In this document: positions 1-63,090 of the stretch, in pieces | Layout of the letters: every line of letters starts with the position of its first letter | How positions within the stretch are numbered: position 1 is the stretch's first letter | Source: Echinostoma caproni | Taxonomy: Eukaryota; Platyhelminthes; Trematoda; Plagiorchiida; Echinostomatidae | Direction: 5' to 3' | Length of the DNA stretch: 64,000 nucleotides | Assembly: GCA_900618425.1 (NCBI GenBank) | Contig: UZAN01039495.1 | Span: 1-64,000, forward strand | Position numbers and translations under genes: made by a program | The notes under the pieces: generated by a model | The model's input: the letters and a program-made list of their open reading frames with translations, nothing else | Databases searched by the model: none | What the model was told of the DNA's origin: nothing

Positions 1-33
1 ACTTTCTTCCATTTCGCATGCGTCACACTACAG

Positions 34-17737: not shown

Positions 17738-17866
17738 GTATGTCAGCTGGTAGAGCATACGCGTACAAAGCGTAGGCGGCGTCCATGCGTGGGTTCGAAT
17801 CCCACCGAGGCTACTGAACTTTTCACAATCGACATACCAACTTCAAATCTGCCAGACAACTATTTG
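17738..17866 (+). repeat. tRNA-like SINE (family V) with perfect 16-bp target-site duplication
   Basis: A 129-bp insertion carrying GTCAGCTGGTAGAGCA (A box) and GGGTTCGAATCCCACC (B box). It is flanked by identical AACTATTGGTAATTCT at 17722-17737 and 17867-17882. The homologous repeat at 21.9 kb lacks the insertion. Related heads occur at 34056-34136 and 34286-34370. Confidence 0.82.
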
Positions 17867-30059: not shown

Positions 30060-30260
30060 GGTTGACACGAAGCACCACAATGCAATATGTAGGATAGCGA
30101 AGAAACAGCAATTGAAATTGAATAAAGAACATTAACAGCTTTGTGGACAGAATCCTATTCACTTTCCGATGTTCCTGACGGGAACGGCGCATGGATCACT
30201 TCATTTGCTGCATGTGCCTGTTTGCATAGGAAATAAAACAATGAAATTCTGAACAAATAA

Positions 30261-30349
30261 TCAATAACAGAATAATATTATTACTATAATTATGAAACCC
30301 GTTATTTCAACGAGGTTTTTCATTGTGTTCAAGGCAAATGAATCATAAA
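30261..30349 (-). CDS. Terminal exon (exon 28) of the minus-strand micro-exon gene: hydrophobic C-terminus and stop
   Basis: The acceptor AG at 30351-30350 follows a T/C-rich tract. In phase 1 the exon reads on with IYDSFALNTMKNLVE and ends ITGFIIIVIILFCY before TGA (30263-30261). The hydrophobic run reaches the last residue, so there is no cytoplasmic tail. Together with the N-terminal signal peptide this fits either a GPI-attachment signal (small residues S, A and N lie 10-20 residues before the run) or a short membrane anchor. The tract used as acceptor appears to be the 3' end of a SINE. Confidence 0.83.
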
Positions 30350-33300
30350 CTAGAAAGTTAGAAAGCACTAGACACCTCGCTAGGTGTCATCAACATTGCG
30401 AATCCATCGACTAACCTGGAATCAAACCAGCGAACTCACAGATAGAGTGCAAACATGCCATTCACTCGGTTACCGGACAGCTGAATAAGCTGCTTTTCAT
30501 TTTCCATTTAGGTGATCTGTGTGAGGTTGCTGTGCTCGACGCCCCTAAATCATCTCAGCACTAGCCCCTGGACTCATGATACTACGAATTCCTTCAATAA
30601 AATTGAATCAAATCCTCCATCACTTAAATGAAAGCTTATATTTGTAGGTGGTCTGGATCAATGGTGGTAACATCCATAATCAGCGCTTATGAAGCATGGA
30701 TACTCTGAATATGAATGTGCTACTGTATATACTCAACCAGGTTAGATTGTTTGGCAAGTAGAATTATTACGTTCTATTTGTGCAAAAGCTCAATACTCCG
30801 TAAGCCCCAAGGCATCATGACAATACCAGTAACAGTAAAAATGACCAATATGATTACATTGTGAGAGCAAGCAAACCGTCCTTTCAAGTGGTGACTGCGC
30901 GATTTGCGCTGTCCAAGTACGATAGCTCTCCAATTCAAACTCTTCATTGCTACCGACAGTTGAATAGCATAGACTAGATTGCTAACATTGACAGGGGTCT
31001 TTCAGGTAAACGTAATCTAGGTGGAGGTGTCCGTATCGGAATGCTACAGTCAACTTATTCCGCGTCGAATTCTTTGGCCTAACGTATTGTTTGACAAGAT
31101 TCATTGAATTATATCAGCACACAGGAGAACCTGTAAATTTGGTATTCTTCACAAATGAATCTTTTTGTTTTACTGATCAGCAAGCACTCGAATCAAAGGG
31201 GTAGCGTGTGTCATGTAAATGCATTTTACCAAAACAATGCAGCTCGAAATTATTCAACTCACATGATTGTGTTGGACATGGGGTTTCTATGAACATTGGA
31301 TTCAATGAGCGCCTCGTTTAGTAACGCATCGTGTACGAAACTAATTAGTTCAGAGGTACGAAGGAAACTGAAGTACAAGCATTGCACACCGTACGCGGTG
31401 CCCATATGGCCTGACTAATGGTGATCAGATTCATCCGCCAATTACAAGGAGAACAAAAGGTGTTTAATTGTTTCCCAAGTGTTCCGAAATTCCCCAAACA
31501 TTCATCAGTAAACCTCCAGTGCTATGGTGCATTTGTTCATCAACAGTGCATAAAAATCCACTTGAAAAACTTTGCACATCCTGTGTGTGTGTGTCACATA
31601 ACAATTTCAGTAATCGAATTGTTTTTTAAGCAGCGTACATACAGTTCCACTTACTAAGACCTTGTCCCAAACCTGAAATCATGCAAAAGGAGGCCAATAT
31701 CAATCCGGTTGAAGCAATGTTGATCAAAACACTTGAACGAGAGATACTTTTACGGGCGTGAAATAACTTCAATCACAAAATTATGGTGAAAGAAGTGCGT
31801 TTGGGGATTTCAGACTAGACAATCTGTCAGGTGCTGTACGTTGCCAACAGGGTTCTTAATAAAATGTTTGAATAACTAGGGCCCTGTTCTGAGTGCATTT
31901 CACAAGTGTTTGAATAGGATCAATGTTTCAGAGCAATAAAAGTAAACGACTGATTGGACCAATCTGTCCAGGTATTCAGAAACCTGCAAAATTTGTATTT
32001 ATGCTAAGGGATTTGCCACACGCTAGACTTTCAATTTTGCTTATTTTCAAACATTTTTACTTGCTTTATTGTTTTTTTTCTATTTAAATGTGCAGTAGAC
32101 TTCTAGGAAGGTGACCGCGACCGTATAAAGGCTGCCCAGGAGAAATACAGATAAGGGAAACGCCGGCGATGGTGATGTCATCGGGGTTCGAACTCAGGAG
32201 CCTCAGGGGTTTGCTCCAAAGACCATACCAGCCGATCATTCAGACCGGAGATTCCCTGCTTCTGTTCACTCTCGAATGCACCCATAGGTCTGTTCATTAT
32301 GACTAAGATAAGTTATCTCATGTTATTTAGGTAACTGAAGTAAACATCTGAAAATAGAGACAAATTATTCCGGCAACAAGCGTTGTTACCGTGAAAAGTA
32401 GTTTATCTTTGGTCATGTTGAACAGATGAAATCATCTCGGCTCTTTTCTATCGTCTTCGAGGTTTTTCAAACCGTGTGGATCGGGTTCACTAATCAACTC
32501 CTTCTAGTCGGTAATTATATGAAATAAATCAGTGCACGTCACTGATTGAATATGCCAAATCCTGTTCGCCGGATAAACGGGGAATACATACGCCATGCAT
32601 TTTAAAACTCACGCAGGATACGGCACATCATTTGATCTGAAGACAGAAGAATTTGGATTATTTGGTTAGTTTCATAGAACATTCTGTTGTTTTGTTGTTA
32701 TTTTTGATAAAACCGTCAAATAGTATAAGTGTGGTATGAACTTGAAATGCGTCAGGCAATTTAAACTGATCGTTGCCTCCTGCTATCTTATCACAAGCCG
32801 TCTAACAGTGAAACATCAATTATAGTCACCCTACCAGTACCGAAAAGTGTGTCAAGCGGTTGCCAGGCATGTTACTCGTTATTTGTTCATAGCTTTCGGA
32901 CTATTTTGGGTTCATTTCCGGGACCATTTCATACATTATCAGATCGTGGTTCTCTGTCTCACACATGCGAAGCGGCTGACTTGCGTAGTTCCAGTCAATA
33001 CACAGCCTTTATCATTCACCGGGAGATGTGGGTGTTTCTTCGTGTTATCCCATTTGTCCACGACATTTTTTCAGTTTCTTAACAGGACCAGAAATCGGTA
33101 ATCTTTTTAAACCCATTTTTGTTTGAAAAAAGCTTCCGTCTTCACATAACCGGGACGAGATCTACAAATTCAGTAATCGGGTGATTCTAGCGATAACATT
33201 CGTCTTGTGAATGGGCTTCACGTTTCTCAAATGAGTGTGGTGTGTGCACACTGATAACAAAGACGACAGATGAAATCACTTACTGGCTTTCATTCCTGTT

Positions 33301-36300
33301 ATGGAATCATGTGGGAGAAGATAAAGAAGGTTTCTGGTAAGGATTGTACACTCGCGGAAGGCAAAGATTTAAAGTGTTTGAGGTAGCCAACGTTTATCTG
33401 GATGTGTTGATGTATCTGATGATGATGTGGTGATTGTAATGATCATACTAAGCTTTCGCTTTCTGAACTATCACCGATGAAACAACGAACCGTTAATTTG
33501 CGCAGTCTTGGATGCACCTGGAAAAAAATAAAATCGAAATGTTTTATTAGTTCTCTGGATGAAGTCGATGGCAAAGCAGTTTTGGCTGAAGAATAACGAG
33601 CATAAGACATAGCCATCTAAGTTAATACCTATACATGCCCATTCCAATCAGCAATTTATTTAACTGATGAATTCCTCAGAATGGAGAACAGAAATAACAA
33701 ACATCTACATGTTCGAAAGAGATGCTTAAGTATTTGGACGCTGTTGTTTTTCTCCACAACAGCGCGAAACACAAACAAACAAATTTGGGTGATCCTTTTT
33801 CCGCTTCACAGAAATGAATTCATAATTTTCGATCTTTTTGTCCAAATCCGTAAACCAAGTCGTTGCACAATTCGATACTCACGAGTGTGGCTTGCAATAT
33901 TCTACTTACAGCAAGTAACGGGATGCCCTTTTGGTGAATTAACAAAGATGTGCCGTTTGCGGCGGTTTGACGACCAAACAAGCAATACATACACAAGAAC
34001 CCGCTAGACGATTTCAAACGCTCTTTTATCTGTATGTCGACTGTGAAAAGTTCAGTAGCCTCGGTGGGATTCGAACCCACGCATGGACGCCGCCCATGCT
34101 TGTACGCGTATGCTCTACCAGCTTAGCTACGAGGCCACACCAATAGCACTGATCTTTTCACATTCGGATATACACATCCAACTTACAGAGGCATATGGAT
34201 TCTACCAGCTATCAGTTGGTTTGACTGCCACCGTAAGCTTTTCTNCAAATTCATTGGAGTTCACTGATTGAATTTCTAATCAGTGTGGCCTCGAAACTCA
34301 TCTGGTAGAGTATGCATTGTGCAGAGGCACAGACAGAGTCCATGTGCGGGTTCGAATCCCACCAAGGTTATTGAACGTACCAAAATTTAGGGCCATATAT
34401 TCTCAATCTCTTAAACAACAACTTGAACTACAAGATAGAACTAGCTACCTCACAACAGTTATTGATATTAATATTATTATTATATTTCTGTTAGATATCA
34501 ATATTATCTACTTGTTACAGACTGTTAAACACTTTCTGACGTGAAAAAATATATGTATGGCTAACAGTTGCACGTCAGGCGAATTGGTAATTTGAAGAAT
34601 AAACGTACTGTCTGACAGTGTTTTGACTTGATCTGTTTGGAGGGAGAAAACGTCAAAGGGATGTGAATGAGAGCTCCCGAATAGGACAGGATGAAATAGG
34701 TTTCCAATATTTCTGTGCATAACCAATACAGAAGTTAATCCAATCTCGGAAAATCAAAGAACTGAGTTTGCTTGGAAATAAAACATTATTTTTCACGTGC
34801 TAGTTCGGGTTTAATGTTCAAACCCCAGATCAAACACTCGTGTCGAGTCCAAAAATGGTGGATGCTGAATCACTGAAGAAATGCAAAATTTTATAACTGA
34901 CGGAAGTTTGGACATGGAAGGTAATAACTTAGAGGACATAATTGTGCATATTATGTGTAAATCGTCTTCTACAGTATAGTCCAGGCTGAATGGACGAAAA
35001 TTGCCAAAATCTATATATGTGGTCGAAATGGAAGCGAAACATTCTTGTACCTCGGACCGAAGTGAATTAAGGTAATCCATTCATAACATGGTATTTCGCA
35101 GTGTATACGCTTTGCGCTTATACATGTGGTATGGATGTTTTACTACGACTCTTCGAATAGTTGCGCGTTATTTTTAAAATGGCTAGAGACGCCTTACAGC
35201 TCTTTTATTCATGACAAGAATCGGTTTGCAATGCATGGAAAGTCAGGGAGATTTGTTAGTCCGAACGCGGACGTTGAAGGTTGCACATCGGACTCATAAT
35301 CACCAGACCACTCGGATTAGCCTCAGTGTTTGGTTTGAAAGAATGGGATCAACGGATGCATTTCTTCGGTTCAATCACCTATGAAGCCATTAGTCATACT
35401 ACTAGATTTATGTGAGTAGTTCGAGAAGAAATCGCAAATAATTGAATCATCACGCAACGTGTAGAATGACAAGTTGAACAAGAGCAGCGAGAAATGGCGC
35501 ACCGCAATCGAAGCGCTTTGGACTGTCAGCGTTTATAAAAGTCCGTTTGCTTGAGTGACTGTCGACAATGAACGGTCACTTTACATTCCATGTAAACGAT
35601 GTTGCATAACCCCGTTGTTGGTAATCGTTTTTTTGGTATACTATGAGGGACGTTGCATAATCTAATTTCAGGACTCGGGTCAATGTTTCAAATGCAAAAT
35701 TTCTACTTGCATAGTTTTCTATTTTCATGATTGCAGCCATAAACGCTTGATGGGACCGTAACATGTTCCAGTGTAAACTGCGCTGTTCCAATAAGGTGTA
35801 AACCCCTGATCTGGCGATCTGTCACCCGCAGCTGGATCGTGCAACATGTTTCGCCCTCCCACATTTTCTTGACATTAATCATGTAATGTTTTGCCTCATT
35901 TATTACTGAGGATATTTGGCCCGAGTTTGGCTAATTCCTCTCGAATTAGTCTAATTCACGGACGGTGATCCAGTTTCTCGGAGTGGTCGCTTTGTGGGGC
36001 TCCTGTTCTCCGAAGATGTAGTCGTCCCCAAAACTTGAGTTAGTCAATGTTTATCGAGTTCATGCCAATGTTTGGAATCACATTAGCAGGTCAACAAAGT
36101 GGCTAGTCATATTCACAGAGCGTGTTTTGTCGATGCTGATCATATTTTATCATGAAAATTCGGTTTGGAGGTTCTACTGGATAATACACACGATCAGTGT
36201 ACTGATACGTTTTAGTTCGCGGTTTTATTTACATCAGTGGGAGAATAGATCATACAAGAAGGTCGCGCTCTGCTTTATTAACTATGTGACCCACCGAAAA

Positions 36301-39300
36301 CATTAAAATCATTATTTCAAACATTAGGTTTGATCGCCAAATCAATAGAAAGCAATCATGATCTTACTGAGCATGTCCCCTGTAGATATAAAATGAACAT
36401 ATGAATTGAATCTTTTTGTATTTCTGAGCAAAGAATTGGTGATCACTGAGCGATCACATACGGATAATCAATTTTCGTTATTAAACATTGATAAGCTATG
36501 AAATCATCTTCACAAGAAAATTCACTTCTAAAATACTCCCAAGTGTTTATGTTTGACTTGTTATTGCATAAAATTCTAGGTTCCAGCGAGAACAAACGTC
36601 GGTTGCCAAGAATGTAAGCAAAATCAGTAAATTGCCGTCTTTACACCTGTTCATATCGTTTATCGTGGAACGGACACACACAGGTTTATCTTTTTACACG
36701 ATTCAAACACACAGCACATTTTCCAGCCATACGACACCATATCCCCAAGGCATTTTACCCGGGGCTAGTGAGCTTCTAACTTCAATCATGAGCGATTGAT
36801 TGAACTCACTTTGGGTCTTGTCGTTGAGCATAAGCACTAGAAACACACAAAATATGAAACGAAAAAGATAAAGACGGGAATTGATTGAGCAAATTGTTGA
36901 AGCTACAGAAACTAATTTATTTGGAGTAATTGCGATAAAACGGTTGCACTGGATACTGCGTTCATTTTTTAACAATGTTCTATCGGTAGCCTTCTCCAAC
37001 TCAATTACACTGTCCACGACGGAGAATGATTTCTATGCACGCACCAAATAATCGATACATGAGTACTAAAGCGGTACTGTTCATTATGGACAGATTTTAA
37101 ATGATGTGCTGAAGCTGTTTGAATTTCTAGCGATTCATATTCATAAGCCACTTGACTATCCTTTTCGCGGTGTTGATATCTTCAGGTTTTTCCCGTCCAC
37201 GTGACATGGAAATTCCTTCAGTTAGTTCAGTTCAGTGGGCATTGTAAATCTCATTCCTTGGAATGATTGAAAAGACTATATTGAATGCTCACCCATAGAA
37301 ATAACCTTGCTTTTAACAAGTATCAGTTGTGCACAGATGTTATGGAATCATTTAACATATCTGATTTGTTTCAGTATTCATCTTCAACACATGACAGCAG
37401 GTAAAGCGGGTAATAATAAGCTTTTTCGTTAGAGAAATCTTTCGAACAATAAAGGCATCATTCTAATGTGACTACACCGCATCCCTCATAAAAAGTGGAA
37501 CACAGAGTGATGAGGCCTGTGCTTGTTATGGGTCCGTAGCTACTAAGGATCTTTCTTCCATGCAAACGGGTTGGAAACTTCAAATCTGCGTCCCCTTTGG
37601 TTACTTGTTTTGAAACGGCGAACTGAAGTACACACACATTCTAAGCCAGTTGGCTTTTGTGGTTGTTCGCTGTTATTCCTTTCATGGTTATCATTTTTCC
37701 AATGCGCTTAGCCTCTTCCTCTTGCATAACATCGACAACAACAATCAGCATGCATGAGGAAAGGTGAAATGGGAATGTTCGTCAAAACATTGCCTCGAAT
37801 ACTCACACTGAAGCTGAGTCGACATGACAGCTATCAAATGCACGTGCACGAGAGAGAGAGATGGAGAGAAAGTAGAAGAGGGACATTTTAAACGTCTGTT
37901 ATAATTTGTCTTCAGGTTGCAGAACGCAAAAAAAACTGGCGCATGAGTTCATGGACTGGACTACAACGCGAAAAAGCTACCCACATTCGTTCATCAGAGA
38001 GCCAGATCGATGGCATCAGGTATCCGATTGGATATGATTATCCTAATCGTGAATGAGAAAGATGTCTGTTATCCTGATTCACACGTAGATGAACATTTAA
38101 ATCATGGTTATAAGTGATATTGACTTTAATATGAAAACTTCGTGGAGTGGTAGCTTCCGGTGGGTTTGTACAAGATCAGATTATTTCATTCCTGTTTTAG
38201 ATTTTTTTGGTCATTTTTTGAACTCTGGTCTCGGTGATTATTCTGCACAAACGAAAAGGTATCCTTGGTTCCAACTATTTCTCCTGGGTGCATGCGTTCA
38301 GAATTAGACAGTGAGCCCAGAGATTAAAATGGCCGTAACTACAGAACTCTCGCTCACATTGATCAAATAGGATATGCTGTTTTGGAACCTCATGGCCTAC
38401 GAAACCAATGGTTAGAGTCACAGATTTAAATGGTCAAGTGTAGAAAACATTTACCTGTTAAAGAAGTGGTACACAATGGAAACTAAAATGAACCAATTCT
38501 AATTTCCTCAATGATTGAGGTGTTTCGCATTGGTCTATGTTGTAATGAAGGCCACTCCTAAAGGACTGAAAGCGTTTTCTGGATCCTCTCAGCCGATACG
38601 TGTGCGTTTATTGTTAAATTTGTGGGTTTTAGCTCATTGATCGTGAATTGATTTGGGCCACCACGATTCTGTTTGAGATGAGCCCCCCAGCCCAGAAAAA
38701 AGGATTGATCATCGGTATCCAATGCCAACCAGCATGTGCGGTGATAAATCCTGTACTTGTTCGTCCACCTAGACCGATAACGAGATAGCTCCGTATCTTT
38801 TGATGATAGTGTAACTAACGGCGATCCACTCTGCTGGAAGTGGGTAGGCAAGATCACATTCCGAGTAGATGTATTGCATGTTACAGCATCATCATCATGC
38901 GCGTGTAAACTTGTCTTTTATCAAACACTCAGATCAATATTCTCAAACGGTATTAAACTATTCAAGTCTGTCAGGATTGCTTCAAGGTTAAGTGGCTCAT
39001 TGCAATGCATTTTAAACGCACTGTTCCACCGCGAGTATCACTTTATTGACCAAACTTAGTGCATCAATTGGTTGTACAGCTTTATTTAACACTTACCTTG
39101 TGATTTACCTGAGAAAAAGCAGATAACCAGGAAGGTTTTGAATATTGTTGCGAACCAAACGCGAGGAAATCGTTCTTTCCATTGATATGTAAGTGTGGGT
39201 GGATGGATTGATGCTAGTAATGAAATGAAAAACTCAACCAACGCATCAGCATTGGATTTGATTGCGTGATTCCTACTTTAGGTCCCGCGTTCCTTCATTC

Positions 39301-42300: not shown

Positions 42301-45300
42301 CTTTCACGCCTTAAACGGTTGGGGTTTCGAAAACTGCCAGAAGTTTTGTATTCTAATCATTCGAGAAGAATTCGAAATTAAACGAGAAACCTTCATTGAT
42401 AGACATCCAAACAGTGTATTCTCATCGTTAGAACGATATTTTGTATTTTCGGACTAGCACTTTGGACCGGTCGATTGTTTCGGTAACACTGCTTGCTGTT
42501 CCGATCACAGTTCACAGTTCAGGTATCTGCAGAATAAAATAGCCCCATCTGAGTTGTTAACATATCGTCATTGAAAATACCAAAAGGGATGAATGTAAAT
42601 CATTCCAGGAATATCAGGCGTCTTGTAGAAGCGCTTGGGAAAGGTTCTCGTGGATCTGACACCGTTCCGCTAGCTACTCCGCCTGCCCGACCGCCCCCCC
42701 TCCCACCGAAATCTACAACCCACTGGTGGATTGAGTGAGTGATTAAAAGCTGAAGCTGATAATTTGTTGATTTCCGTTTCTAATTCAGAACGATATTATT
42801 TGCTGTCAAATCAGATACCGTATACGAAAGTCACATCAAACGACCATCGTTAAAATTGATCAGAATGTGAACCGGGTACAGATCAATGAGCTTTAAATAG
42901 GTTTAGAGTATAAATCTAGTATGCGTGTATTTGCAGAAAAACACTTACGGTTTTTTTTGATATGCTTAGACATCTCTGTTGAAAAGAAATTCATGGACCG
43001 AATAATAATATCTTTCCGCATGATTGGATCAGGCACGTGTGAGGGTTTGAATGCTTTTGCTAGTAGATGGGTGCTTTAAAAGCAATTCATAGAAATCCTT
43101 CAAAATAGTACGATTATGCTGGATAGTCTGAGGACAGTTACTAATGTTTTTCGATATTGATGATGTGGTCGTGGAACGTAGCTGTCACTAAGACTGAGGT
43201 GGCATGTATACATGCACCGGAATCCAATTCAAGAGAACGATATTCGTAAAATCCTAACACCAGTACATGCCACGTGATTGTATTCAGAAACTGTCATATT
43301 TGGAACAAGAAAGGTAAATACTGAACAAATTAAATAATTGATACTGTTAGTTGGGCAGAGTGAGCTTCATTCTGGTCGATATTCACAGATGGAGTGTGCC
43401 TATCCGTTATCAATTTAAACATTTACTTAACACGCCAATCAAGTGTGTGGTTGAGTAATGTAATAAAATTTTCCATTTTTAAAGACTGAAGTTTGCTTTT
43501 TAAATTTTTAGTAAGTGAGGTTATGAAAACAATGGTTCCCCTGAGTTAGAGTTATATCGGCCCGCAGTCTGGACTTTTCATCAAGGATGTACTAAAGTGT
43601 GTTGATTTTCAATTGATGATGCATAGGGAAATACACTCACCGGTTATTTTCTTGTTAGTCTCCTCTGAGTGAACAAACGGGTGTTAACAGAGGGATCAGG
43701 AATTCATCTCATCGGTAGTTGAAGTTCAGTTGGCACGTAAAATAAAATGGTATGGATGTAATCATAAGTCTAAAAATGTAATCATAAGTATTAATTTACG
43801 AGCCAGATAGATTGATCGAGTTTCGGGTCAACTGTTTTTCTTGTTCGGACTGATTTGTTTTCATGCTTCTGGCAGAAAAATTTCTAGACAGTGAGATATA
43901 TGAGAACCAGGACAGATTTTAAGTAAACAGTAAGCAGTTGTAGGTTTTCAAATGAAGGTTGACGGTTCGTGTCTCGGCAGTCGACTGAGACCCTTTATTG
44001 ATCGAGCACCACAAGTACTTCATAATACGGTATTTTGTGTAATGTGACCGGAGCAAATCACCCAAAACGCGATCGCCTTTCGCTTTCGTTCACATCTGTC
44101 CACTGGCACTTCAATATTAGGCTCTATTGTCTTCCAAACCGTGTTACTAGGGTTTGCTTTGCGCATAGACTCTCTGTTCGGTTCGCATTACTGTGCAACA
44201 ACTCATCATTTTGCGACGTTTGGTTTACTATTCATAACACTTTTAATCAGGCTCTCTCGCTCTTCAACTAGAATGTTATTAACAGTTCTATCACTGCATT
44301 CAACAAAAATTTAATACCACATTTTACGGCTGTCCCGGCGATCCTCTCTCTGTCCCGTTGTCTTAGGTTTTGACTGTGACTGAACTGCGCTGCGCGCACA
44401 ACGGGTTAACGCTTTGGAGCTGTATCTTTTCCTTTCAATTCACATTATTGTGTGCGGTTGATTCAACGCCATACCCATTTCGAACCGAAATACAGACATC
44501 ACTGGGATTCAGAGCAGCAAGCTCGGATTAACCATTCGCACAAAGTGATAGCCATCGGATATTTAGCTCAGGGGTAAGTGTTTGAAGTCCAAACCCGAAG
44601 GTTCGCTGTTCGAGTCCTAAGCGATATGCATAAAAGCACGCACTGCTGACGAGTCCCAAACAGGACGAATCAGCTGTCCTGTGCTCTTTGTCGATTATCA
44701 CAAACACTTCCACTGTATGCAAATTACTGGATTCAGATTGAGTTTATCGCTTAACATTGCCTTGACTTAAATCATTTTTAACAAGACAATAAATATAATA
44801 TAATAAGAATAATATATAAATAATAATATAAAGTTTAATCAATTGAATTGGTTCGGTTTACTGGTTATGCACCAAATAGAATGATAGAGAATCTGAATGT
44901 GGCACCAACTTTGGTTTGTGGATTTATACGTTACTGTATCAAAATGAGAACTTACGGAGTGCACAATCTGGTTTGTTGACAAAAGGATACAATGTTGCGT
45001 TTCACTTGCAAGTGAAATTCAACTTTGTTAATAACTATTACCTCGCAATAATTAGTACGCGGACTTTGTGCGTTTTAATGTCCTTATTCGGCAATAGAGT
45101 TTATCCATGAGCTAGCAGAAGTGCCGTTCAGCAGAGCCGGAGGTCTGCATTCACATTGGGACTCAGGTTTTGAGAACGAAGAGCATCGAAATGCTTCCTC
45201 TCTTTTAAACTGCCTTTGAATCCATTCCTGAGTTGAAAAATCATGACAGTTGATAAGACGAATCGTGAACAGGCATTCAAAAATGGATGCCACGAATACC

Positions 45301-47543: not shown

Positions 47544-47592
<49 letters not shown>

Positions 47593-50500: not shown

Positions 50501-53500
50501 AATGTATGGCTATGCGACGCACAACAAGCGATATATATATATATATATATGATTGATTTACTTTCCGGCCAAATGATTGTGAATCTTCGAAATCGTATAA
50601 ATGACAAAACAAACACACCATGGTAATATCGTTGCTTGCACACTCTTTGAGTTTCCCAGTTTATATTTCACGTTGAATTGAGAATGATAATCACAGAGCA
50701 ACAAGTGAGTTGCACACCACTCTGTAGCTCGTACATCTTCTGTGGAATCTGCAATGCAATAGCTCTTATTACGAATCATTGTATATTTGATACAACACNN
50801 NNNNNNNNNNNNNNNNNNNNNNNNNNNNNNNNNNNNNNNNNNNNNNNNNNNNNNNNNNNNNNNNNNNNNNNNNNNNNNNNNNNNNNNNNNNNNNNNNNNN
50901 NNNNNNNNNNNNNNNNNNNNNNNNNNNNNNNNNNNNNNNNNNNNNNNNNNNNNNNNNNNNNNNNNNNNNNNNNNNNNNNNNNNNNNNNNNNNNNNNNNNN
51001 NNNNNNNNNNNNNNNNNNNNNNNNNNNNNNNNNNNNNNNNNNNNNNNNNNNNNNNNNNNNNNNNNNNNNNNNNNNNNNNNNNNNNNNNNNNNNNNNNNNN
51101 NNNNNNNNNNNNNNNNNNNNNNNNNNNNNNNNNNNNNNNNNNNNNNNNNNNNNNNNNNNNNNNNNNNNNNNNNNNNNNNNNNNNNNNNNNNNNNNNNNNN
51201 NNNNNNNNNNNNNNNNNNNNNNNNNNNNNNNNNNNNNNNNNNNNNNNNNNNNNNNNNNNNNNNNNNNNNNNNNNNNNNNNNNNNNNNNNNNNNNNNNNNN
51301 NNNNNNNNNNNNNNNNNNNNNNNNNTGATACAACACGACTGGATATCTAAATGTTTTGTTTCATTATGTCTTTCAAGTCCTACATTGGTTTCCATGCTTT
51401 TGATATGTCATTGTAAATTCTGTAATCTATTCACACTTGTGTGAGATGGGCTCCGTTCTCAGTAGCTTTATGAGTGCAGTTTTCAAGGTGAAGCGCGGAT
51501 TTTCGCAATGTGAAATTCATGATATATATATATATATACATATATAGGCCGATTAAATTCAACAAACAGGCACATTGTTGTCACACGTGAAACAAAAAGC
51601 TTTCGTGTTTAATTAGTATTCGCGAAATTTCACAAATAGTCACTTACGTAAATCCTTCAGTAATTGTTTGGTATCTGAAAAAATGGGGGACAGAGAATGG
51701 ACGGGTTTACGCATCTTTCAGCATGCTATTTTGTCAACAAAAGAAACCGGAATTTTTAGAGAGATGGGTTTTATCCACTGATAGGGGCAGTTCTGGAACT
51801 AAATTCGATCTCCACCGACAGTTCAGGTAAGGTAAACCGTTGTACGTTCCGGGATAGACCTGCTGGTTCACCGAATTCGCATTAGTAGACTTCGCTGGCT
51901 AAGGCACGCCTTGCGTCTGCCGCATTGCGCTCTATTCGTTGTAGCCTCTTCAGGATGGAGGAAGCCACGTGGACGTTAGCAAATGACGTAGAGAGATAAG
52001 GCATGAAGAAATACGGAGATTGGTTTGGTAGAGTATATTTTGCACCGAACATGTTGGGGGCCAAATATTGTAACTGGTTGTTTGGAGATCGGGAAGGAGA
52101 TGGCAACGAACCGACGGCAGTAGCGTTCTTGTTGTCATTTATTATCAGGCCGGAATGCCTGAAACGGTATGTATGCAGATTGAATTGTGCACTCAGTGTT
52201 CACTATAGAGGATCCTGTTGTTCCCCTTCCGTTTAGTCTGGGCCCAATCTCTGTCCATCTTACATATTACCACCAACGTTGCATGTAGCAATCACTGAAG
52301 TTTGTTTCACTGTATTTCGCTGTACGGTAATGATGAGAGTTAAGAATATACTTAAAAATACCTCGATCGAACTTTTGCTTGAATCTGTTTTCTCGTTTTA
52401 CAAACAATATAACGCAAGATGAGTATGTAAAACTGAATTTGAATAACGTACCTTGAACATGGTTTGTCAGACAATCTGAAAACGAAAAGCTTTTGCTGGG
52501 TTAAAATGGTTTTATTTTCAACAGTGTATGAACTTTACTCGAACAACTTTGATTCCACGGCTAGATCAACGGGTTGTTTATCTTTTCTCTAGTAATTCAG
52601 AGGTCACCAACATTTGCAGTGTTTTTTTACAGTGTTTGTAGTTCTAAATTCCTTAAGATATTACAAGTGAATTTAAGATAAGAAATTTACAATTGTTGTA
52701 AAACGTATCACTCCGCTTAGACAGGTAAGTTCTTGTGTCCTGATCTAGTCTCATGTGACAAAGAAACCGACTGTAGAGCAAATGTACTAGTGAGCTCTTG
52801 AATATATTTTGCATTCTCACAAAGTAGTATGGCAGCACGCATCGATGGTCTTGCAAATACACCATGTTTAGAAAACATAAAATGTTATAATGTGCTTTGC
52901 ACGCTCTGAAGCGTACGGTTACCGGACAACAGGTGGAACGCATGATTACATAGGGACAGGCCAGCCTCGGGATCTTCATCATTTTGGTTTGAAGTTTGTA
53001 CCAATGATCTATTTAAGTAGGGTTCTCAATAATCCAACCTAAACTGCGTGTAAACCCGTTGTCAAGTTATTCACGTTGTTACGTGGTTTCTTATGTCTAC
53101 ATTCTCTCAGTGCAAAGAGGCTCGGTTGGCTTCGAACTTTTCAACTTGATTGCACAAACAACAACAACGACAACAACAACTGACAAACTGGTGACTTACC
53201 GACTCGTTTACCTGAAATATAACACGCGCGCATTGATTTAGCTTTGAAGTTGAATAAGGAATTACACAAAATGTATGATAACAAAGGAGATTATGAATAA
53301 CCCAACTAGTTCACGTCTTACATTGAAAATGATTTTCACTAAAGAGTTCAATCAATATTTGTTATACGATATTCGATAAACAAATCATGTTGACGTTGAC
53401 AAACATCACAGTTTAGTCCTCGGTTAAAGTATATTTTTGAATTGTAGGCCGCATTTCATCGGTCCAGGATAACACAATAAGTAACAAAATCACTGAGTTA

Positions 53501-56500: not shown

Positions 56501-59500
56501 TAACCAAACTCTATTATTAGCCAAACAAATAACATCCTTCAGGGTATTCATGAAAATCAACTGCATAGAACGTGAATAATGCTGCAAAAACAGATGCTTT
56601 GAATCAATATAGGAGGTTTTTACAGCAATTTATCACCTTTTGAACAAACTGGTTGATTATTTTGGTATATTTAAGCCTTCGGTAGATCCGTTGTGAGCTT
56701 TTGATCGATTTGACCAGTGATATTTAGGTGCCCACACGGCAAGAACGGTCCCGCAAACATATCATACTTCCAGTATTGTAGGCCCCTACACCGTCATCGT
56801 ACTTCAACATTTTCATATTTGAACCATAACTACTTCCTACATATCAATTTCGCAAGAAGTGATATCAAATAAATAAACATTCTCATGCTGATTCCTATGG
56901 CAGTTGTAAAACAATAATAAAACTGTAAAGTAACTATTTTCGGCCCAGTTTAGCTGGATACTTACTCAGGTTATCATGATCACCCATTCCAACTAAAATT
57001 TGAAAGTAGTGTGATGCATTACATATGTGGTCATTTTGACAAGGTAGACAGGATAAATTATTGTATATGTTAACTATGTACCATTTAAAAATAAAGCAGA
57101 ACTGGTATGTTATCAATTGATACACCGGTTCACCTAATATGTCCAGATGTTCCGTATTTACTTCATTAGACAAGTGCGTTATCGAGTATCCAATAAATTG
57201 CCTCAGAAAATGTGATAGATTCATGAATAAACGATGAAAGAAACGCTTCAGTGTGACGCACATACCACCCATGTTTTTAGATTTTTCCAAGCAGCATTAC
57301 AGTTGAAATATCATTTATCTATGTATCAAAAGAACCGTTGCTTTTAAAATTTATATAACCATTTATGTTTGTCTGTGTCAACTTCCGTTGAAGCCCATAG
57401 GCTATGGTTGTAACAGATCTATGCCTAACGCAAAAATTGACAGCGTGGATAGGGGATATTTAATCAATGCATCCTATGCAGTCCAATGATCCATTCCTGA
57501 TCCGGCCAGAAACAAGACTACTACCATTATCTTGGATATCTTTCATCCAAATATCCTGTCTTTTATAAAGATCGGAAGAGAATAAGCTTGTAGTCCGTAT
57601 GTTCCCGGGATAAACTAAAACGACGCAGTATTCGGAAATTGCGTTTATTCCTAGTAATTCAAGTGAAACGATTAAATGCGAACAGCGATTAGATAGATTA
57701 GGTGGCTCTTGTCTTCCGGGTTGGGGTCCAAAAGCCTCTGTAATCGCATGATTTGAGAAACTGAACGTCCTGGTAGGCAAATAGATATAAGTGACAATCT
57801 TGTTGTCACTTCTTGTCAGATCAAAATGTTCTAAGTAGTGTGTACCCACAGTCGGACTGTGTGCTGCTTACTTTTCTAGTCCTTCAACGTAGGCTCATAT
57901 CTATCCTCCTTACAAATTCATTTACTTGCCATGCATTTTGAGTTTTGCAGCGGTTCACAGTAATACACTGTACGATGTTAATGATGAGAATGACTTAATT
58001 GCGAATGGAATAACTCACTTTTCAATCCCTCAAGTGTCAAATCTGTACAAGAGATTCATCGGTTAGAACAGGGAATTACATAAGAACATAAACATGAGTA
58101 TGCATCGAACAACACCAAAAAAATGCAAGCCACATTTATTCTCAATGGTTTCGTAGGTGCACCATAGCGTTATGCGGCACATATCTCAAGAACGTTTGAA
58201 ACTTTATTAGTTCGTTACTAACGAGTAATGATAAGTTAATTTAATCGCTCATACATTGTCTCAGTAAGATACCAAATCACAAACACGACTCAGTTTCAAA
58301 TAATAATTTACACTACTGAAATCTTGTAAGTAACCCATATGTTTCAGTGAAAACGTTTTCATCTGGCTGATTACATTCGTTTTGATCAACCATCTTGTTT
58401 GCAAGGTTCTTGTGAAGTGTCCGAGAAAAATGTGATATCAATCCAATTGACGAGGACTAACCGCGAAGGCTTCATAACCAAGGTATCAGTTCATTCTGGG
58501 AAAAACTTCGAAAACATTGCGAATACGTAGAATAACCACTGTTTTTGTGGAAAAAATACTTCTATATCAGCAAACCCAATGTCGTCAACTTACCCTGCTT
58601 TTGATCTAAAAGAATTGTATTATCGTTAAAGTGAACTGGTTACACAATTTTGCGACACATTAAAACAAAACGACTCATTTGTCAGGGCAAATAGCTATGC
58701 TGAACGGAAATTCGGAAGGTGATCGTTTTTATCGTAGTAATTTATTTTTGTATTTGTATAACATTTGTCATCTGAGATATGTTAAAAATTATACACTGGT
58801 CATCACATTAGAGAAAATATAGAAGTATAGACAGATCCAATAGACTGCTGTGTAAAAATTCGTCTTCAAGGTTTGATTCATTCAATTATCGATTGACGTA
58901 ATTCCTTATAACTCGTTCCTGGTTGGTCAAGATGCAAACCAGATACGGTAAAAAGGAGTGTTTATAAATGTTCATTCGATGAGTTAGGTACCGATAAAAG
59001 GAACGAGTTATCGATTGGGAGCAACAAGAAGATAAGTCAAAATGCAAAGGATGGTAACGATCTTTTAGAATCCTATTGGCAAAAGTCATACATGACTTCA
59101 TTAGTTCTGTGATTATTAAAGAAACACGTCTTATTATCATCAATCCTCGAGGATTAGTTTCAAAGTCTCGTTTCAGTAGACCGGGAAACACCACAGGGGA
59201 GCAGTAGAGTAAAATAGTAAGGACCATAGCATTGATCAAAAGACTCGTCAGGGACATCATTTAGAATACCTCACTGTATGAATTGATTATCCAAGTGAAT
59301 ATGAATCTGTTTACTTCGTAATTGTATTTGTTGAATGTGAAACTGAACAGTCAAATTTCAGGAAGCAACCCTCAGACATTCCAAGGCCGCCTGAGGAAAT
59401 AGAGAAATGCACTTGATAGACGATGAAGAGATTATCTATGATTTGCGAGCATTGCTATTTTTCAGACAGTATTCCAGTTTGAATCCGCTCTTTCAAGTTC

Positions 59501-62500
59501 TGTGAGAACAAAACTGACATAATTACGTAAAGTCATGTGAGGTACTGCTCGCATTTGTAAGTAGTATGCGAAATGTTGTGGTTGGTGGTTTGTTTCAGCG
59601 GTCAAAATTAAACACGACCGCTTCGGGAGAATCGCTGCGTTCAATTCACAACTACGGACTTTTCCATTCATTGATTGACGAGTAGTTACGTTTAACAATT
59701 CTCGACATCAAACGTGTCGCAATATAACTTTAAAGGTGTCGAAAGTCTGGAGAAGGTAGTCTCTAAAGCCTAGCATGGACCCATTTGTGATATGTAATCG
59801 CCGAAGCGCAAAGCGCAGACACACGCGTCCTACTAGTTTCAATAGGTTATTCGCCGGTGAAAACAATTAATTCAATAAACGTAGATTTGTTGACTGCATG
59901 AATTGGTTATTTACACAATTTTTTTGCTGAAACAAACTAACGTTTTGGGAATACATTAAATCAGGAAAATATGACACAAAGAAACAATTCACTCACTAAT
60001 ATGATCCAATAAAGATCCATGGTTGGCTACTGGGAAAACAAAAGTTTTACTGTGCTATAAGTTTGCTCGAGGCTGTTTACTGATACTGAAAATACGTGCA
60101 CAGAACATTCGGATTTTTATTTTATGCCATAAGTCCAGTCTTCGCGGCAGAAGTATCACCATAAAGTTGCAGTATAAGAGGAATTAACACCTATATATCA
60201 TTTCAAAAGACTGAATGCAATGAACATTAGACTAGACAAAGAAATAATAGATTGTGTAGAGTAACCAGAAATCTGTCCCACGCCGGAGATATCAAGTACT
60301 TTCAAATGAAAAATAGTGGTCATCTCTAAGTCGATCGGTTTTTGAGTTTAACAAACCACACGGTAACTGAAATGTGAATGTTGTCTACTCTAATGCAAGA
60401 TGACTGACGGAAAAATAAACAGGTAGCCTAGGAAGATATCAATCATCAGAGGTTGTTGAAATGATAGATTCAGTTGTGGTACTATAGGATTCACAACTTT
60501 GAATTTTTCTACTCCAGAGTGATACGAAACAAACAAGAATGCTCCCGATGAGGTGAGAAGTAAATGCAACTAACGTAATCGCTGTTTTACTTCGATGCTA
60601 CCATCTGGAGCAGTTTGTTTTCGTTAAAAACGGGATGGCAAGTTTCACTTCATTTATATCGTCTAATTGGTATCCCAACCGGACGAGGATTCATGCACCA
60701 ATCACCGTTATAATGCTAAATCCATGCACGTGGAGAGAGGTTTTCACGTCCACTGGTTTTGAACAGACTCATCGCATTTTCTACCTCGGCTGACCTCGTG
60801 TAATCTCGTACTTTCTTCTCCGGTTATCAAACTGGAATACAATTGGTTGCACACCGCCAGAAGGAGCATCAACAACACGTGCGTTTCAAAACAATGGACA
60901 ATTGCAAGCCTTTCACATAACTGTGCATGAGTAATTTTGAATGAAAAAGTATAATTGGATCAAGTTGGTTTTCAAATGACGCAGTAGAACAAAGATGATA
61001 AAGCGCAAAATGTTTACATCTTACTAATTGCTCAGTTTGTTGAAATTTATCAGAATTTTGAATGGCACACGACATATTCAGCCTAAATACACCGGTTGAA
61101 TAGAAGTGTGACGAAACTCACAGCCAAAGTGAGATAACGGTAAGGTGTCTAGATTTTGTATATCGGAAATCGAAGAGAGATCAGTTGCCCAGGTTTATTG
61201 TTTAGGTAAAATTGTTTTAAAAATTCACAAAGCGTTTAGGTTTAGGAAAATTGGCATCCCTGTTTGTCTCGGTGAAATTCGTAAAATGCACGTGCAACGT
61301 GCGACATTGTTTTAATATCCGTGATTGAATTAAGCACATAATCTTCAAGCCTAGTTTCTATTACGTTTGATCCCTCAATGGCCGCAATTAAACTTAGAGA
61401 TCTGGTTCAGACCTTATTCGCACAATCGTCAATCCGCTTGTGTTTAGTAGATTGCTTTGTATTTAACCAACCTAAACTTCTAGTATGCAAATTGTTACAA
61501 ACCCGTGGGAGAGAATTGCAGATAGGCGATACACAGCAAAAACTGGTTATTAATAGCTCATCTAATTTACAGGTCAATCAGAGCATTTCTCGTGGAGGTA
61601 TTTTTATTTGATGAACGTGACTAGTAAAAAAACAATACAACCGTATCAATTCACTTTCCTATCTATTCCCATTTCTTTTGTCTCCGCTTTGTATGATTGT
61701 GCAATCAATAAAATGACGTGATTGGTTATGAATCACGTGAATTCATTCGTTTGTTTTTATGTACTCCGATTCGGCTACATGACAGTAGCTTTTGAACAGT
61801 GTCTATCAGAACAGATATGTGGGAGTTTCTGGGAAAAGAGGTTTCTGTGATTTCAACTTTGAGCAATATTATTATTCCGTAACGTGTTTAGAACATTATG
61901 AAAATTTGAATATCCAAATATGAAACTTTCAATTCACCCTGAATCCCTTGTCCTTTAGCACAGCAGGATAGAGAATTGTGCTATTCAGATTATTAGAGAA
62001 TCTATCAGATGTAACAACTGAGTGCCTATATAGGAGCAGGTCGGATCGAACTTACCCAAGCAATTTGGCGGTGGTGGTGGTGGTGTTTGGATGTAGACTA
62101 AAAGGGCAGAGTTCAAATGATTTGATTGTGATTTCGGGGCAAATTGACTGCTCAAACCAAAGGAATGTTGGCCAAACAACAACCGACAAACATTCCCAGA
62201 GATTTTGACGATCCGTTGGCTAACTTTACGTTTAGTCTCCCCCCTCCCCCGTGTAACCCGATTGATGGTGTGCCCCCAAAATATGGCGCTTCAATCCGCT
62301 ATTCTCCTCATCTATTTATCACAGAGCTATCAGACTATTGCACTCTGTATAGTCTGGAAAATCTTGAAAATGAAACCGAAGAAAAAATATAAATAAGGTG
62401 ACTAAGAGTAGATATGATTCAACATAGAAACACTTCTTGAGAGCGATCTACACATATATTACATCCAGAAATAACAAAACCCCCAACTTAATCATAAGTT

Positions 62501-63090
62501 ATTTTGAAAATTACACTCCCAAAATGTAAGGTATGTCCTGAACAAAGATTTATACCGTTTTTCCATTTCCGCATCGGGTGATCTGTAATGGGTTCTATAT
62601 CCGGTCAGAGAGATTATACCCCCAAACCGAAACTTCATTCCGTCAAAGCTGATAAATGTTGTGTGAACCGTGAGTACGGTTTGGCGGGAAAACAAAGGAA
62701 ACTGGAAGACCACTTTCAAATGCGTCCATTTGTTAAAATCTTGACAGCGATTTCACACAGATACAATTCAATAATTAAAGGAAATTAGCAACATATTTGA
62801 AAAGTGGAAAACTATTCTTGAAAATGGTCACTCACCATCAGGACAGGTTTGTGGAATGACTGAATTTTACCAGAACGAAATAAGCCACAATGCTTTTATA
62901 TTTAAGTTTAATAAAATACATCTACTATCAAGAAAAGAAAAACAAAGCATGCGTCCCAGATTAAATGCATTTCATTTTTGCAGCTGAATGTTGTATGCAA
63001 CAATAGCCTATTGAGGAACTCACCGCAAGCATAATTTCTGTTGATAGCAGAAAGCACTATCAGAAAAATGCTTAGTAACTCCAACGCCAT
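30261..63090 (-). CDS. Micro-exon gene: signal peptide, coiled coil from 24-27-12 nt exon triplets, hydrophobic C-terminus
   Basis: This is a 28-exon gene whose 702 coding nt are spread over 32.8 kb. It begins with a signal-peptide exon (63024-63090). Eight triplets of 24, 27 and 12 nt follow, then a 24-nt exon, an 18-nt exon and a terminal exon (30261-30349) that ends in TGA. Each internal exon has a pyrimidine-rich AG acceptor and a GTAAGT/GTGAGT-type donor; two donors are GTACGT. All introns are phase 1. Joined, the frame is open for 233 codons, although several exons contain stops in phase 0. The architecture (signal peptide plus symmetric micro-exons) is that of flatworm micro-exon genes, most of which encode secreted or surface proteins of unknown biochemical role. 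I do not recognise the protein. The heptad periodicity points to a coiled coil. Introns hold retroelements and one assembly gap, but no exon is missing from the triplet pattern. Confidence 0.92.
30352..30480 (-). repeat. tRNA-derived SINE abutting the terminal exon acceptor
   Basis: The minus strand has an A-box-like GGTAACCGAGTGAATGG, B-box-like CTGGTTTGATTCC, a short hairpin ACACCTAGCGAGGTGT and a tail TAGTGCTTTCTAACTTTCTAG. The tail resembles the stem I 3' side of the 10.8-kb hairpin. Its last bases are the polypyrimidine tract and AG used by exon 28. Confidence 0.5.
31655..32636 (-). CDS. Exons 26-27 of the minus-strand micro-exon gene: truncated ninth unit
   Basis: The 24-nt exon is 32613-32636 (NQMMCRIL) and an 18-nt exon is 31655-31672 (RLGQGL). 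The 24-nt exon has a phase-0 stop and keeps hydrophobic residues at unit positions 3 and 7. The 18-nt exon replaces the expected 27-nt exon and links to the terminal exon, so the tandem pattern breaks just before the C-terminal hydrophobic segment. Both acceptors are strongly pyrimidine-rich. A minus-strand SINE sits in the intron between them (about 32130-32245). Confidence 0.85.
32130..32245 (-). repeat. tRNA-derived SINE fragment, intronic
   Basis: The minus strand reads CGGCTGGTATGGTC, then CTGAGTTCGAACCCCG, in the order A box then B box. It sits in the intron between exons 26 and 27. Confidence 0.45.
33284..37830 (-). CDS. Exon triplet 8 (exons 23-25) of the minus-strand micro-exon gene
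   Basis: The 24-nt exon is 37807-37830 (AVMSTQLQ), the 27-nt exon 36810-36836 (LLMLNDKTQ) and the 12-nt exon 33284-33295 (RMKA). Exon 23's pyrimidine tract is a (CT)n run about 20 nt upstream of the AG. Exons 24 and 25 have strong acceptors. The 3.5-kb intron between exons 24 and 25 contains two tRNA-like SINE heads in opposite orientation (34056-34136 and 34286-34370). Confidence 0.86.
34056..34136 (-). repeat. tRNA-like SINE head (family V)
   Basis: GGCCTCGTAGCTAAGCTGGT, AGAGCATACGCG and GTGGGTTCGAATCCCACC, closing with GAGGC: ends that could pair as an acceptor stem. The region between the D and T arms does not form a normal anticodon arm. The 3' tail TACTGAACTTTTCACA is shared with the 17.7-kb SINE, so it is a retroposon rather than a working tRNA gene. 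Confidence 0.6.
34286..34370 (+). repeat. tRNA-like SINE head (family V), diverged
   Basis: GGCCTCGAAACTCATCTGGT, then GCGGGTTCGAATCCCACC and AAGGTTA. Opposite in orientation to the copy 150 bp upstream. Confidence 0.5.
39097..41208 (-). CDS. Exon triplet 7 (exons 20-22) of the minus-strand micro-exon gene
   Basis: The 24-nt exon is 41185-41208 (SGVSKKIA), the 27-nt exon 40253-40279 (GLKLQLDEQ) and the 12-nt exon 39097-39108 (RKSQ). Exons 20 and 21 were located by predicting the triplet pattern upstream of exon 22, and both carry good donors (GTAAGT, GTGAGT). Exon 20 has a phase-0 stop. Exon 22 has one of the best acceptors in the gene, a run of T and C ending CTCAG. Confidence 0.9.
42115..43664 (-). 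CDS. Exon triplet 6 (exons 17-19) of the minus-strand micro-exon gene
   Basis: The 24-nt exon is 43641-43664 (QETNKKIT), the 27-nt exon 42949-42975 (EMSKHIKKN) and the 12-nt exon 42115-42126 (LKGL). Exon 17 contains a phase-0 stop and exon 19 would start with TGA in phase 0, so only phase 1 keeps the chain open. For exon 18 two tandem AGs two bases apart are possible acceptors (25 or 27 nt); only the 27-nt choice keeps frame. The unit is lysine-rich. Confidence 0.88.
44561..44738 (+). repeat. tRNA-derived SINE with hammerhead ribozyme (family A), intronic
   Basis: Head TTTAGCTCAGGGGTAAG and B box CTGTTCGAGTCC. The hammerhead spans about 44632-44689: stem I 5' GCACTG, CTGACGA, perfect stem II GTCC-CAAACA-GGAC, GAAT in place of GAAA, CAGCTG, UC, then CTGTGC. 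Flanks share ACTGG(G)ATTCAGA. It lies in the intron between exons 17 and 16 of the minus-strand gene, in opposite orientation to it. Confidence 0.68.
44956..47443 (-). CDS. Exon triplet 5 (exons 14-16) of the minus-strand micro-exon gene
   Basis: The 24-nt exon is 47420-47443 (TVATNALF), the 27-nt exon 45931-45957 (KKLEILPKT) and the 12-nt exon 44956-44967 (YCAL). Donors are GTGAGT, GTAAGT and GTAAGT. The 27-nt exon has a clean pyrimidine-rich acceptor. One proline lies inside the helix-prone middle exon. The (CTAT)n/(TTTC)n microsatellite at 47543-47614 lies about 100 bp upstream of exon 14, in its intron. Confidence 0.88.
47543..47614. repeat. (CTAT)n and (TTTC)n microsatellite
   Basis: About twelve CTAT units followed by about six TTTC units, upstream of exon 14 in its intron. 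On the gene's strand it reads GATA/GAAA. Confidence 0.9.
48193..52475 (-). CDS. Exon triplet 4 (exons 11-13) of the minus-strand micro-exon gene
   Basis: The 24-nt exon is 52452-52475 (DCLTNHVQ), the 27-nt exon 51648-51674 (DTKQLLKDL) and the 12-nt exon 48193-48204 (QCQD). Exon 11 uses a GTACGT donor. Both the 24-nt and the 27-nt exon carry phase-0 stops but are open in phase 1. The acceptor of exon 12 is preceded by a long C/T tract. The 3.4-kb intron between exons 12 and 13 contains the assembly gap and an antisense CR1-like fragment, yet the triplet is complete. Confidence 0.9.
49040..50020 (+). pseudogene. CR1-like non-LTR retrotransposon, decayed reverse transcriptase
   Basis: Reads IYFLDYSDVFNCVDRSKLL (the palm block FLDYS.AF..V.R..L), then LLIKYADNVVVG, where YADN replaces YADD. 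Frameshifts follow, then CIFARTTAYRSSVVPYLARF. That C-terminus matches ARTTANRLFVIPYLSRFLA of the element at 24.4 kb, so both belong to one family. It lies antisense in the intron between exons 12 and 13. Confidence 0.82.
50799..51325. other. Assembly gap (527 N)
   Basis: Falls between exon 12 (51648) and exon 13 (48204). Both flanks carry the same 11-mer TGATACAACAC, so the two contig ends may overlap and the true gap may be short or absent. Confidence 0.98.
51830..51965 (-). repeat. Decayed coding repeat Y, copy 2
   Basis: See the copy at 20.6 kb. This one keeps ILKRLQRIERNAADARRALA in an open frame, then TAA. It is in the intron between exons 12 and 11 of the minus-strand micro-exon gene. 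Confidence 0.5.
53200..53696 (-). CDS. Exon triplet 3 (exons 8-10) of the minus-strand micro-exon gene
   Basis: The 24-nt exon is 53673-53696 (DDVEDRME), the 27-nt exon 53506-53532 (GCRKSLKKS) and the 12-nt exon 53200-53211 (RKRV). This is the most compact triplet, with introns of 140 and 294 nt. The 27-nt exon uses a GTACGT donor and was found because the 24-27-12 pattern predicted it. Hydrophobic residues V, M, C, L and V fall at unit positions 3, 7, 10, 14 and 21, as expected for a coiled coil; position 17 is serine. The unit is very basic. Confidence 0.9.
55030..55466 (+). pseudogene. Penelope-like element: RT tail and start of GIY-YIG endonuclease
   Basis: The frame reads RWGLIKTLFHRPLL, then VLIGVKFKSNQLINDVRGKL, TFPTAQLRMI and VLYQFTCLWNDNDIGRT. 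This is the linker between RT and the GIY-YIG nuclease of Penelope-like elements (GL..TLF.RA, then FPAAKLR..F, then VYQ..C.C...YIGRT). Here DIG replaces YIG, one cysteine of the CxC pair is lost, and the frame ends soon after, so it is a broken 3' fragment. It lies antisense in the intron between exons 7 and 8. Confidence 0.8.
56237..58042 (-). CDS. Exon triplet 2 (exons 5-7) of the minus-strand micro-exon gene
   Basis: The 24-nt exon is 58019-58042 (DLTLEGLK), the 27-nt exon 56966-56992 (IGMGDHDNL) and the 12-nt exon 56237-56248 (MHRF). Donors are GTGAGT, GTAAGT and GTAAGT. The 24-nt exon has a stop in phase 0, and its phase-1 reading is open, which supports the chosen phase. Glycine and aspartate in the middle exon weaken the helix here. 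Confidence 0.88.
58594..62859 (-). CDS. Exon triplet 1 (exons 2-4) of the minus-strand micro-exon gene
   Basis: The 24-nt exon is 62836-62859 (VIPQTCPD), the 27-nt exon 61122-61148 (DTLPLSHFG) and the 12-nt exon 58594-58605 (YQKQ). The first residue of each is completed by the last base of the preceding exon. Acceptors at 62860 and 58606 are strongly pyrimidine-rich. The acceptor at 61149 is weaker, with its pyrimidines about 15 nt upstream. This unit is proline-containing and fits the heptad pattern worst, so it probably forms a head before the coiled coil. The intron at 58606-61121 contains a CR1-like 3' fragment. Confidence 0.82.
58886..59260 (-). pseudogene. CR1-like retrotransposon, C-terminal RT fragment
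   Basis: A 124-codon frame reads INAMVLTILLYCSPVVFPGL, RVSLIITELMKSCMTFANRI, HPLHFDLSSCC and YKHSFLPYLVCILTNQERVI. The order (Y..IL.YCSP..FPGL, ...I..R...HPL, R..SF.P.LAR.L.N) matches the C-terminal tail of the two CR1-like copies here but belongs to a different subfamily. Sense orientation relative to the host gene, in the intron between exons 3 and 4. Confidence 0.75.
63024..63090 (-). CDS. Exon 1 of the minus-strand micro-exon gene: start codon and signal peptide
   Basis: ATG at 63088-63090 opens 22 codons plus one base (67 nt), then a GTGAGT donor at 63023-63018. The peptide starts MALELLSIFLIVLSA and ends NRNYAC: a short n-region, a hydrophobic core and a polar c-region, typical of a cleavable secretion signal. 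The exon ends in phase 1, matching every downstream exon. A CAG lies four bases before the ATG after a short pyrimidine-containing stretch, so the 5' leader could be joined by cis- or trans-splicing just upstream of the start. Confidence 0.88.

Follow-up and report, generated by a model that had tools for sequence, protein, structure and literature searches.

A candidate micro-exon gene of Echinostoma caproni with a repeated three-exon cassette in heptad register

Flatworms have many micro-exon genes (MEGs), which are difficult to annotate and still little understood. A gene is counted as a MEG if it has at least seven exons, at least half of which are micro-exons (shorter than 70 nucleotides (nt) and divisible by three), including a run of four; curation of these genes is named a high priority, and a confident assignment to orthogroups is not yet feasible (PMC7653826). 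Their exons are mainly multiples of three (PMC7263636), and in Schistosoma mansoni such genes carry 10–20 short exons, mostly of 15 bp, the proteins studied being intrinsically disordered (PMC10526429). The closest precedent to the gene described here is found in S. mansoni MEG-26.2 and MEG-26.4, which combine a repeated exon-length pattern with two amphipathic helices (PMC5825161). Here, we describe a candidate MEG of the trematode Echinostoma caproni, located on the minus strand from position 63090 to approximately 30261 of a 64-kb window at the start of contig C552 (UZAN01039495.1, 151,034 bases; genome 426.5 Mb). In our model, 24 of its exons form eight copies of a cassette of 24, 27 and 12 nt, which amounts to 21 residues per copy, with all introns in phase 1. 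We consider it probable that this is an intact-looking gene of the flatworm MEG type, whose core of eight tandem cassettes would encode an amphipathic or coiled-coil rod.

Exon lengths, frame and cassette order

Intervals bounded by AG and GT were scored with hand-written splice matrices, and candidates of 9–36 nt with a summed score of at least 12 were collected. Between 30261 and 63090, the minus strand holds 33, 7 and 2 candidates whose lengths leave a remainder of 0, 1 and 2 upon division by three. The corresponding counts elsewhere in the window are 15/2/11 (minus strand outside the region), 13/9/5 (plus strand inside) and 16/5/9 (plus strand outside), while 35 kb taken from this contig as a control (including 2542 N) yield 1/6/6 on the plus and 8/8/6 on the minus strand. 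When the region is dinucleotide-shuffled 60 times, the number of candidates divisible by three has a mean of 7.05 and a maximum of 17, compared to the 33 seen. Lengths of 12, 24 and 27 nt are enriched (8, 9 and 6 exons, respectively), and this only on the minus strand of 30261–63090; the three commonest lengths sum to 23 candidates, versus at most 10 in the shuffles. A plus-strand reading of the gene was rejected, as no matching length classes occur on that strand.

The frame is in good agreement with these lengths. When the 23 exons of 12, 24 or 27 nt are picked without regard to frame, all 23 are open in phase 1, with 0 stops in 135 codons, compared to 14 in phase 0 and 15 in phase 2. Over all lengths from 9 to 36 nt divisible by three, 30 out of 32 exons are open in phase 1, 19 in phase 0 and 20 in phase 2. 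An original prediction, made from the sequence alone, had placed all internal exons in phase 1, and this is borne out by the frame-blind set. The three lengths also follow each other in an ordered way: under the cyclic order 24, 27, 12, the 23 exons at threshold 12 need 8 skips, versus 21.3 in permutations (p = 2.5e-4), and the test gives p = 0.002 at threshold 13, p = 0.0016 at 11 and p = 2e-5 at 10. Exon lengths and their order, phase, open frame and hydrophobic register (see below) are properties read from the DNA itself.

The 28-exon model starts with exon 1 (63024..63090, 67 nt, minus strand like all exons given here), which provides the ATG, a hydrophobic start resembling a signal peptide by eye, and a gtgagt donor with a score of 9.7. 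It is followed by the eight cassettes (24 exons), a 24-nt exon at 32613..32636 (score 13.6), an 18-nt exon at 31655..31672 with a 30-nt alternative via a second donor (scores 14.4 and 14.3), and the terminal exon, adding up to 702 coding nt and 233 codons. A second matrix was trained on the 24 cassette exons; the two exons downstream of the cassettes (32636, 31672) lie outside its training set, as do the 5' candidates 62859, 62097, 60029 and 58605, and the downstream exons reach trained scores of 17.1 for the 24-nt exon and 19.4 and 16.1 for the two forms of the other. The 26 internal exons of 12–27 nt, the 702 nt and the 233 codons that the original prediction had announced could be reproduced exactly. 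Identical totals result if the weak 24-nt exon at 37830 is exchanged for a 24-nt exon at 62859, so that the prediction, which specified neither the strand nor the coordinates of its exons, fits either of two sets of 26. On the predicted exons, 26 out of 28 are micro-exons, or 30 out of 32 in a fuller model with four extra 5' exons (813 nt, 270 codons, introns of 140–3443 nt), and every internal exon is a micro-exon, all in consecutive order, which agrees with the MEG definition of PMC7653826. Judged by sequence evidence, the interpretation as a micro-exon gene is well supported.

In the order of transcription, and with exons of 24, 27 and 12 nt given in turn, cassette 1 occupies 58042–58019, 56992–56966 and 56248–56237 (scores 13.9, 10.1 and 14.8), cassette 2 occupies 53696–53673, 53532–53506 and 53211–53200 (17.3, 11.3 and 15.2), and cassette 3 is found at 52475–52452, 51674–51648 and 48204–48193 (17.0, 18.0 and 15.1). 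Cassette 4 (47443–47420, 45957–45931 and 44967–44956; 9.3, 16.1 and 9.3) had its 24-nt and 12-nt exons placed with the pattern in mind. Higher scores are seen in cassette 5 (43664–43641, 42975–42949 and 42126–42115; 17.2, 14.6 and 15.3) and in cassette 6 (41208–41185, 40280–40254 and 39108–39097; 16.1, 15.1 and 23.7). Cassette 7 extends over 37830–37807, 36836–36810 and 36379–36368 (7.5, 14.5 and 13.9), and cassette 8 over 34632–34609, 33517–33491 and 33295–33284 (12.1, 17.3 and 12.2). A credible acceptor and donor had been claimed for each exon. It is not confirmed for the 24-nt exon of cassette 7, the best of three weak candidates, whose acceptor scores only 1.1 and which totals 7.5. At the sensitivity of our search, the exon 1 region and the stretch 39060–39160, which holds the 12-nt exon of cassette 6, are both single copy in the genome.

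Heptad register and predicted product

The main structural feature of the gene, which was absent from the original prediction, is that the 24-27-12 cassette keeps a heptad register. Across the cassettes, hydrophobicity is higher at residues 3, 7, 10, 14, 17 and 21 than elsewhere, and these correspond to the a and d positions of heptads in one register. The difference on the Kyte-Doolittle scale is 3.09, versus 0.78 ± 0.31 for within-exon residue shuffles evaluated in the best of seven registers (p = 4e-4). Leave-one-out fits choose the identical register in 8 out of 8 cases, and the 22 exons below 60 kb whose choice relied on splice score and length, with neither order nor register used, give p = 1e-4 over all registers. 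Taken by length class, the 24-nt exons reach p = 0.0005. In the hydrophobicity spectrum, the maximum falls at 103.0 degrees, with a height matched by 0 of 3000 shuffles. Aligned in register, the cassette peptides have a similarity of -197, compared to -411 ± 47 in shuffles. The hydrophobic residues form a continuous heptad pattern, as is expected of a coiled-coil sequence.

Since each cassette contributes 21 residues, i.e., three heptads, splicing of all eight is expected to yield a continuous rod of about 168 residues. At approximately 24 heptads, the product is likely a helical rod, either secreted or anchored. If the gene is transcribed and spliced as modelled, its protein would consist of a signal peptide, the continuous amphipathic or coiled-coil rod and perhaps a hydrophobic anchor at the end, and might act at the host-parasite interface. 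Three exons were probably duplicated long ago within the gene, and the resulting cassettes then diverged, with length, phase and hydrophobic pattern retained. In S. mansoni, exon duplication in MEG-3 has been linked to a transposable element (PMC4350168). Any exon of the present gene could be skipped in frame. Loss of a whole cassette would alter the length of the rod and leave the heptad register intact, while a rod that lacks a single exon (8, 9 or 4 residues) would be shifted in register; for S. mansoni MEG-8.2, one of ten clones showed a skipped exon (PMC12998952).

A more far-reaching idea, which we put forward tentatively and regard as rather unlikely, is that of a splice-adjustable molecular ruler: the lengths 24, 27 and 12 nt would be held because their sum equals three heptads, and cassette skipping would shorten a coiled-coil rod. 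If so, the rod would change in steps of about 3 nm with its register kept, and selection would act on exon length and phase while the sequence is free to vary. A match between exon lengths and a period of protein structure would offer a testable reason why lengths persist where sequences do not. It also suggests a search rule that can be applied to raw DNA, namely repeating exon-length words in combination with a heptad register.

Alternative readings, gene ends and neighbouring features

Several observations weigh against an ordered series of cassettes that encodes a coiled coil. At threshold 14, the order of exon lengths is weakly supported (p = 0.032), and 5 of the 24 cassette exons (56992, 53532, 47443, 44967 and 37830) score below 12 and were placed with knowledge of the length pattern. 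Only the 24-nt class shows a strong register, which is weak in the 12-nt (p = 0.07) and 27-nt (p = 0.21) classes. Identity of same-class exon DNA compared to shuffles is 0.339/0.259 for 24 nt, 0.296/0.279 for 27 nt and 0.295/0.255 for 12 nt, clearly higher in the first class only, and neither a repeat scan nor self-comparison of the window finds similarity between introns of different cassettes. With identities this low, any common origin of the cassettes must be old; the view that they are still visible as DNA repeats was dropped, as direct repeats of at least 40 nt are absent and all pairs from the self-comparison fall outside exons. As a repeat of 21 residues determines which harmonics can occur, the spectral peak near 103 degrees cannot on its own separate a coiled coil from separate helices, nor a period of 3.5 residues per turn from one of 3.6. 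Polar residues prevail at cassette position 17, and the register is a poorer fit in cassettes 1, 4 and 8. This is what one might see if the gene is real and its cassettes form a string of separate membrane-acting amphipathic helices, an arrangement put forward for MEG-12, MEG-26 and MEG-8.2 of schistosomes; amphipathic helices are reported in several MEGs, and lytic activity in MEG-8.2 (PMC5825161, PMC12998952). We hold such a string to be doubtful here: separate helices do not need the single register that runs through all eight cassettes, and the amphipathic helices described in the available text of PMC5825161 number one or two per protein. That the whole locus is a chance product, i.e., splice-like signals in noncoding DNA strung together, appears highly improbable. 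When its penalty is varied, a permissive chain finder does yield 54, 41 or 32 exons in a chain, so that long open chains alone prove little; these chains were discarded as gene models. An excess of lengths divisible by three also occurs on the plus strand and in the rest of the window, where a second probable gene (see below) explains part of it. Against chance stands the agreement of separate signals, namely length classes, frame, order and register, which are lacking in the shuffles and in the control stretch.

The 3' end of the gene calls for a separate judgement. The putative terminal exon (30261..30349, 89 nt), which supplies the stop and a hydrophobic C-terminus, is the least certain part of the model. 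A repeat of approximately 190 bp is located at 30319–30510 on the minus strand; it matches the genome at 23 or more other sites and may have been exonised. A genome search with 30240–30420 returned at least 24 matches, one being the query itself; 22 of the 23 others run from the intron into the start of the exon, and one stops short. Alignment of 7 of these 23 shows that the dispersed repeat spans the acceptor and the first 15–31 nt of the exon, while the hydrophobic C-terminus is outside the repeat and encoded by AT-rich DNA. It is therefore quite conceivable, albeit not the reading that we adopt, that the cassette core is right and the gene ends elsewhere, with 30349 a chance acceptor in the dispersed repeat and, after it, an AT-rich open stretch mimicking a membrane anchor. 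On the other hand, the terminal acceptor scores 9.3 with the trained matrix, which falls in the range of the cassette exons (5.7–13.3), no acceptor between 31655 and 26000 scores higher with this matrix, and by eye the heptad pattern carries on into the terminal exon.

At the 5' end, some exons have probably been missed in the 28-exon model, judging by splice scores. Probable exons between exon 1 and cassette 1 are 62836..62859 (24 nt; score 12.0, trained 16.3), 62056..62097 (42 nt, encoding six consecutive prolines; 15.3, trained 16.8) and 58594..58605 (12 nt; 15.5, trained 14.9), and a possible one is 59997..60029 (33 nt; 13.3, trained 14.8). Across the region, intervals of 6–60 nt that reach 14 with the trained matrix number 31, 8 and 1 for remainders of 0, 1 and 2, which shows that this level is not free of noise. 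The gene had originally been called complete, with 28 exons and internal sizes of 12–27 nt. Completeness is not supported, given a terminal acceptor within a dispersed repeat, a weak acceptor at one internal exon and 5' exons that were probably missed; the exact number is put in question by the four 5' candidates, all of which score well on the trained matrix, and the candidates of 42 and 33 nt fall outside the size range. What remains of the original interpretation is the gene type, on the strength of lengths, frame, register and controls; the architecture is also plausible for a fluke.

Other features were found in introns of the gene and in its surroundings. Two type I hammerhead ribozymes above the Rfam cut-off occur on the plus strand at 16263–16306 and 44640–44684. 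They sit in copies of one element (16187–16334 and 44564–44712, 83% identical), of which the second falls within one of the gene's introns. Also within an intron is a tRNA-like match (34056–34136, minus strand) in a repeat that resembles a short interspersed nuclear element and is 96% identical to 17745–17837. A reverse-transcriptase-like fragment at 24874–25503 on the minus strand matches Pfam RVT_1 with an expectation value (E) of 0.00016, under the cut-off, and has one relative at 32% identity; the Pfam comparison of the window covered 10 of its 32 long open frames. A probable second micro-exon gene occupies window positions 1–11200 on the plus strand, its 5' end being off the contig. Its phase-1 candidates of 6–18 nt, many of them 9 nt, are located at 34, 1368, 2377, 2546, 3873, 4316, 5324, 6485, 6779, 8052 and 10523; the best are 1368–1376 and 10523–10531, those at 6485, 8052 and 10523 stand out with the hand-written matrix only, and that at 3873 with the trained matrix only. 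Farther along the contig, at 99755–114384 on the plus strand, nine 27-nt phase-1 candidates and others, many of them cysteine-rich, indicate a probable third micro-exon gene, and two 10-kb blocks of this area have length counts of 10/1/1 and 8/2/2 for remainders 0/1/2. Three look-alike 18-nt candidates at contig positions 137600–139000 on the minus strand give a weak hint of a fourth, in a block whose counts (9/8/5) do not exceed background.

Comparison with described genes and proteins

Database searches with the joined product found no relative. A general protein search returned 358 candidates that share short words, none with E of 1 or below, and Pfam listed eight families, each under its cut-off. 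Among PDB sequences, three matches were obtained, all of them to the Plasmodium vivax reticulocyte-binding protein (best E = 0.0019), which we read as helix bias. No coiled-coil MEG was found in the literature, with most subscription journals outside the coverage.

With flatworm MEGs as a class, the present gene shares series of short exons, each a multiple of three, set between long introns; an N-terminal signal peptide is a further feature of the class (PMC7653826, PMC10526429, PMC4350168), and exon 1 here encodes a hydrophobic start that resembles one by eye. The gene differs in its approximately 30 exons, the 24-27-12 period and the heptad pattern. S. mansoni MEG-8.2 resembles it with 17 exons, 15 of them micro-exons of 12–33 bp, and with amphipathic helices, while a cassette period is not mentioned in the available text of its description (PMC12998952). 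A signal peptide together with a predicted membrane anchor is described for MEGs 11, 14 and 32.1 (PMC5825161), whereas an anchor in the E. caproni product depends on the uncertain terminal exon. The trait of MEG-26, a repeated exon-length pattern with amphipathic helices, is displayed by our gene model as well, but there are two helices in MEG-26 and eight cassettes here, and the likeness is one of description. The present gene is not assigned to MEG-26; among micro-exon genes, its design of cassettes matched to the heptad is unusual.

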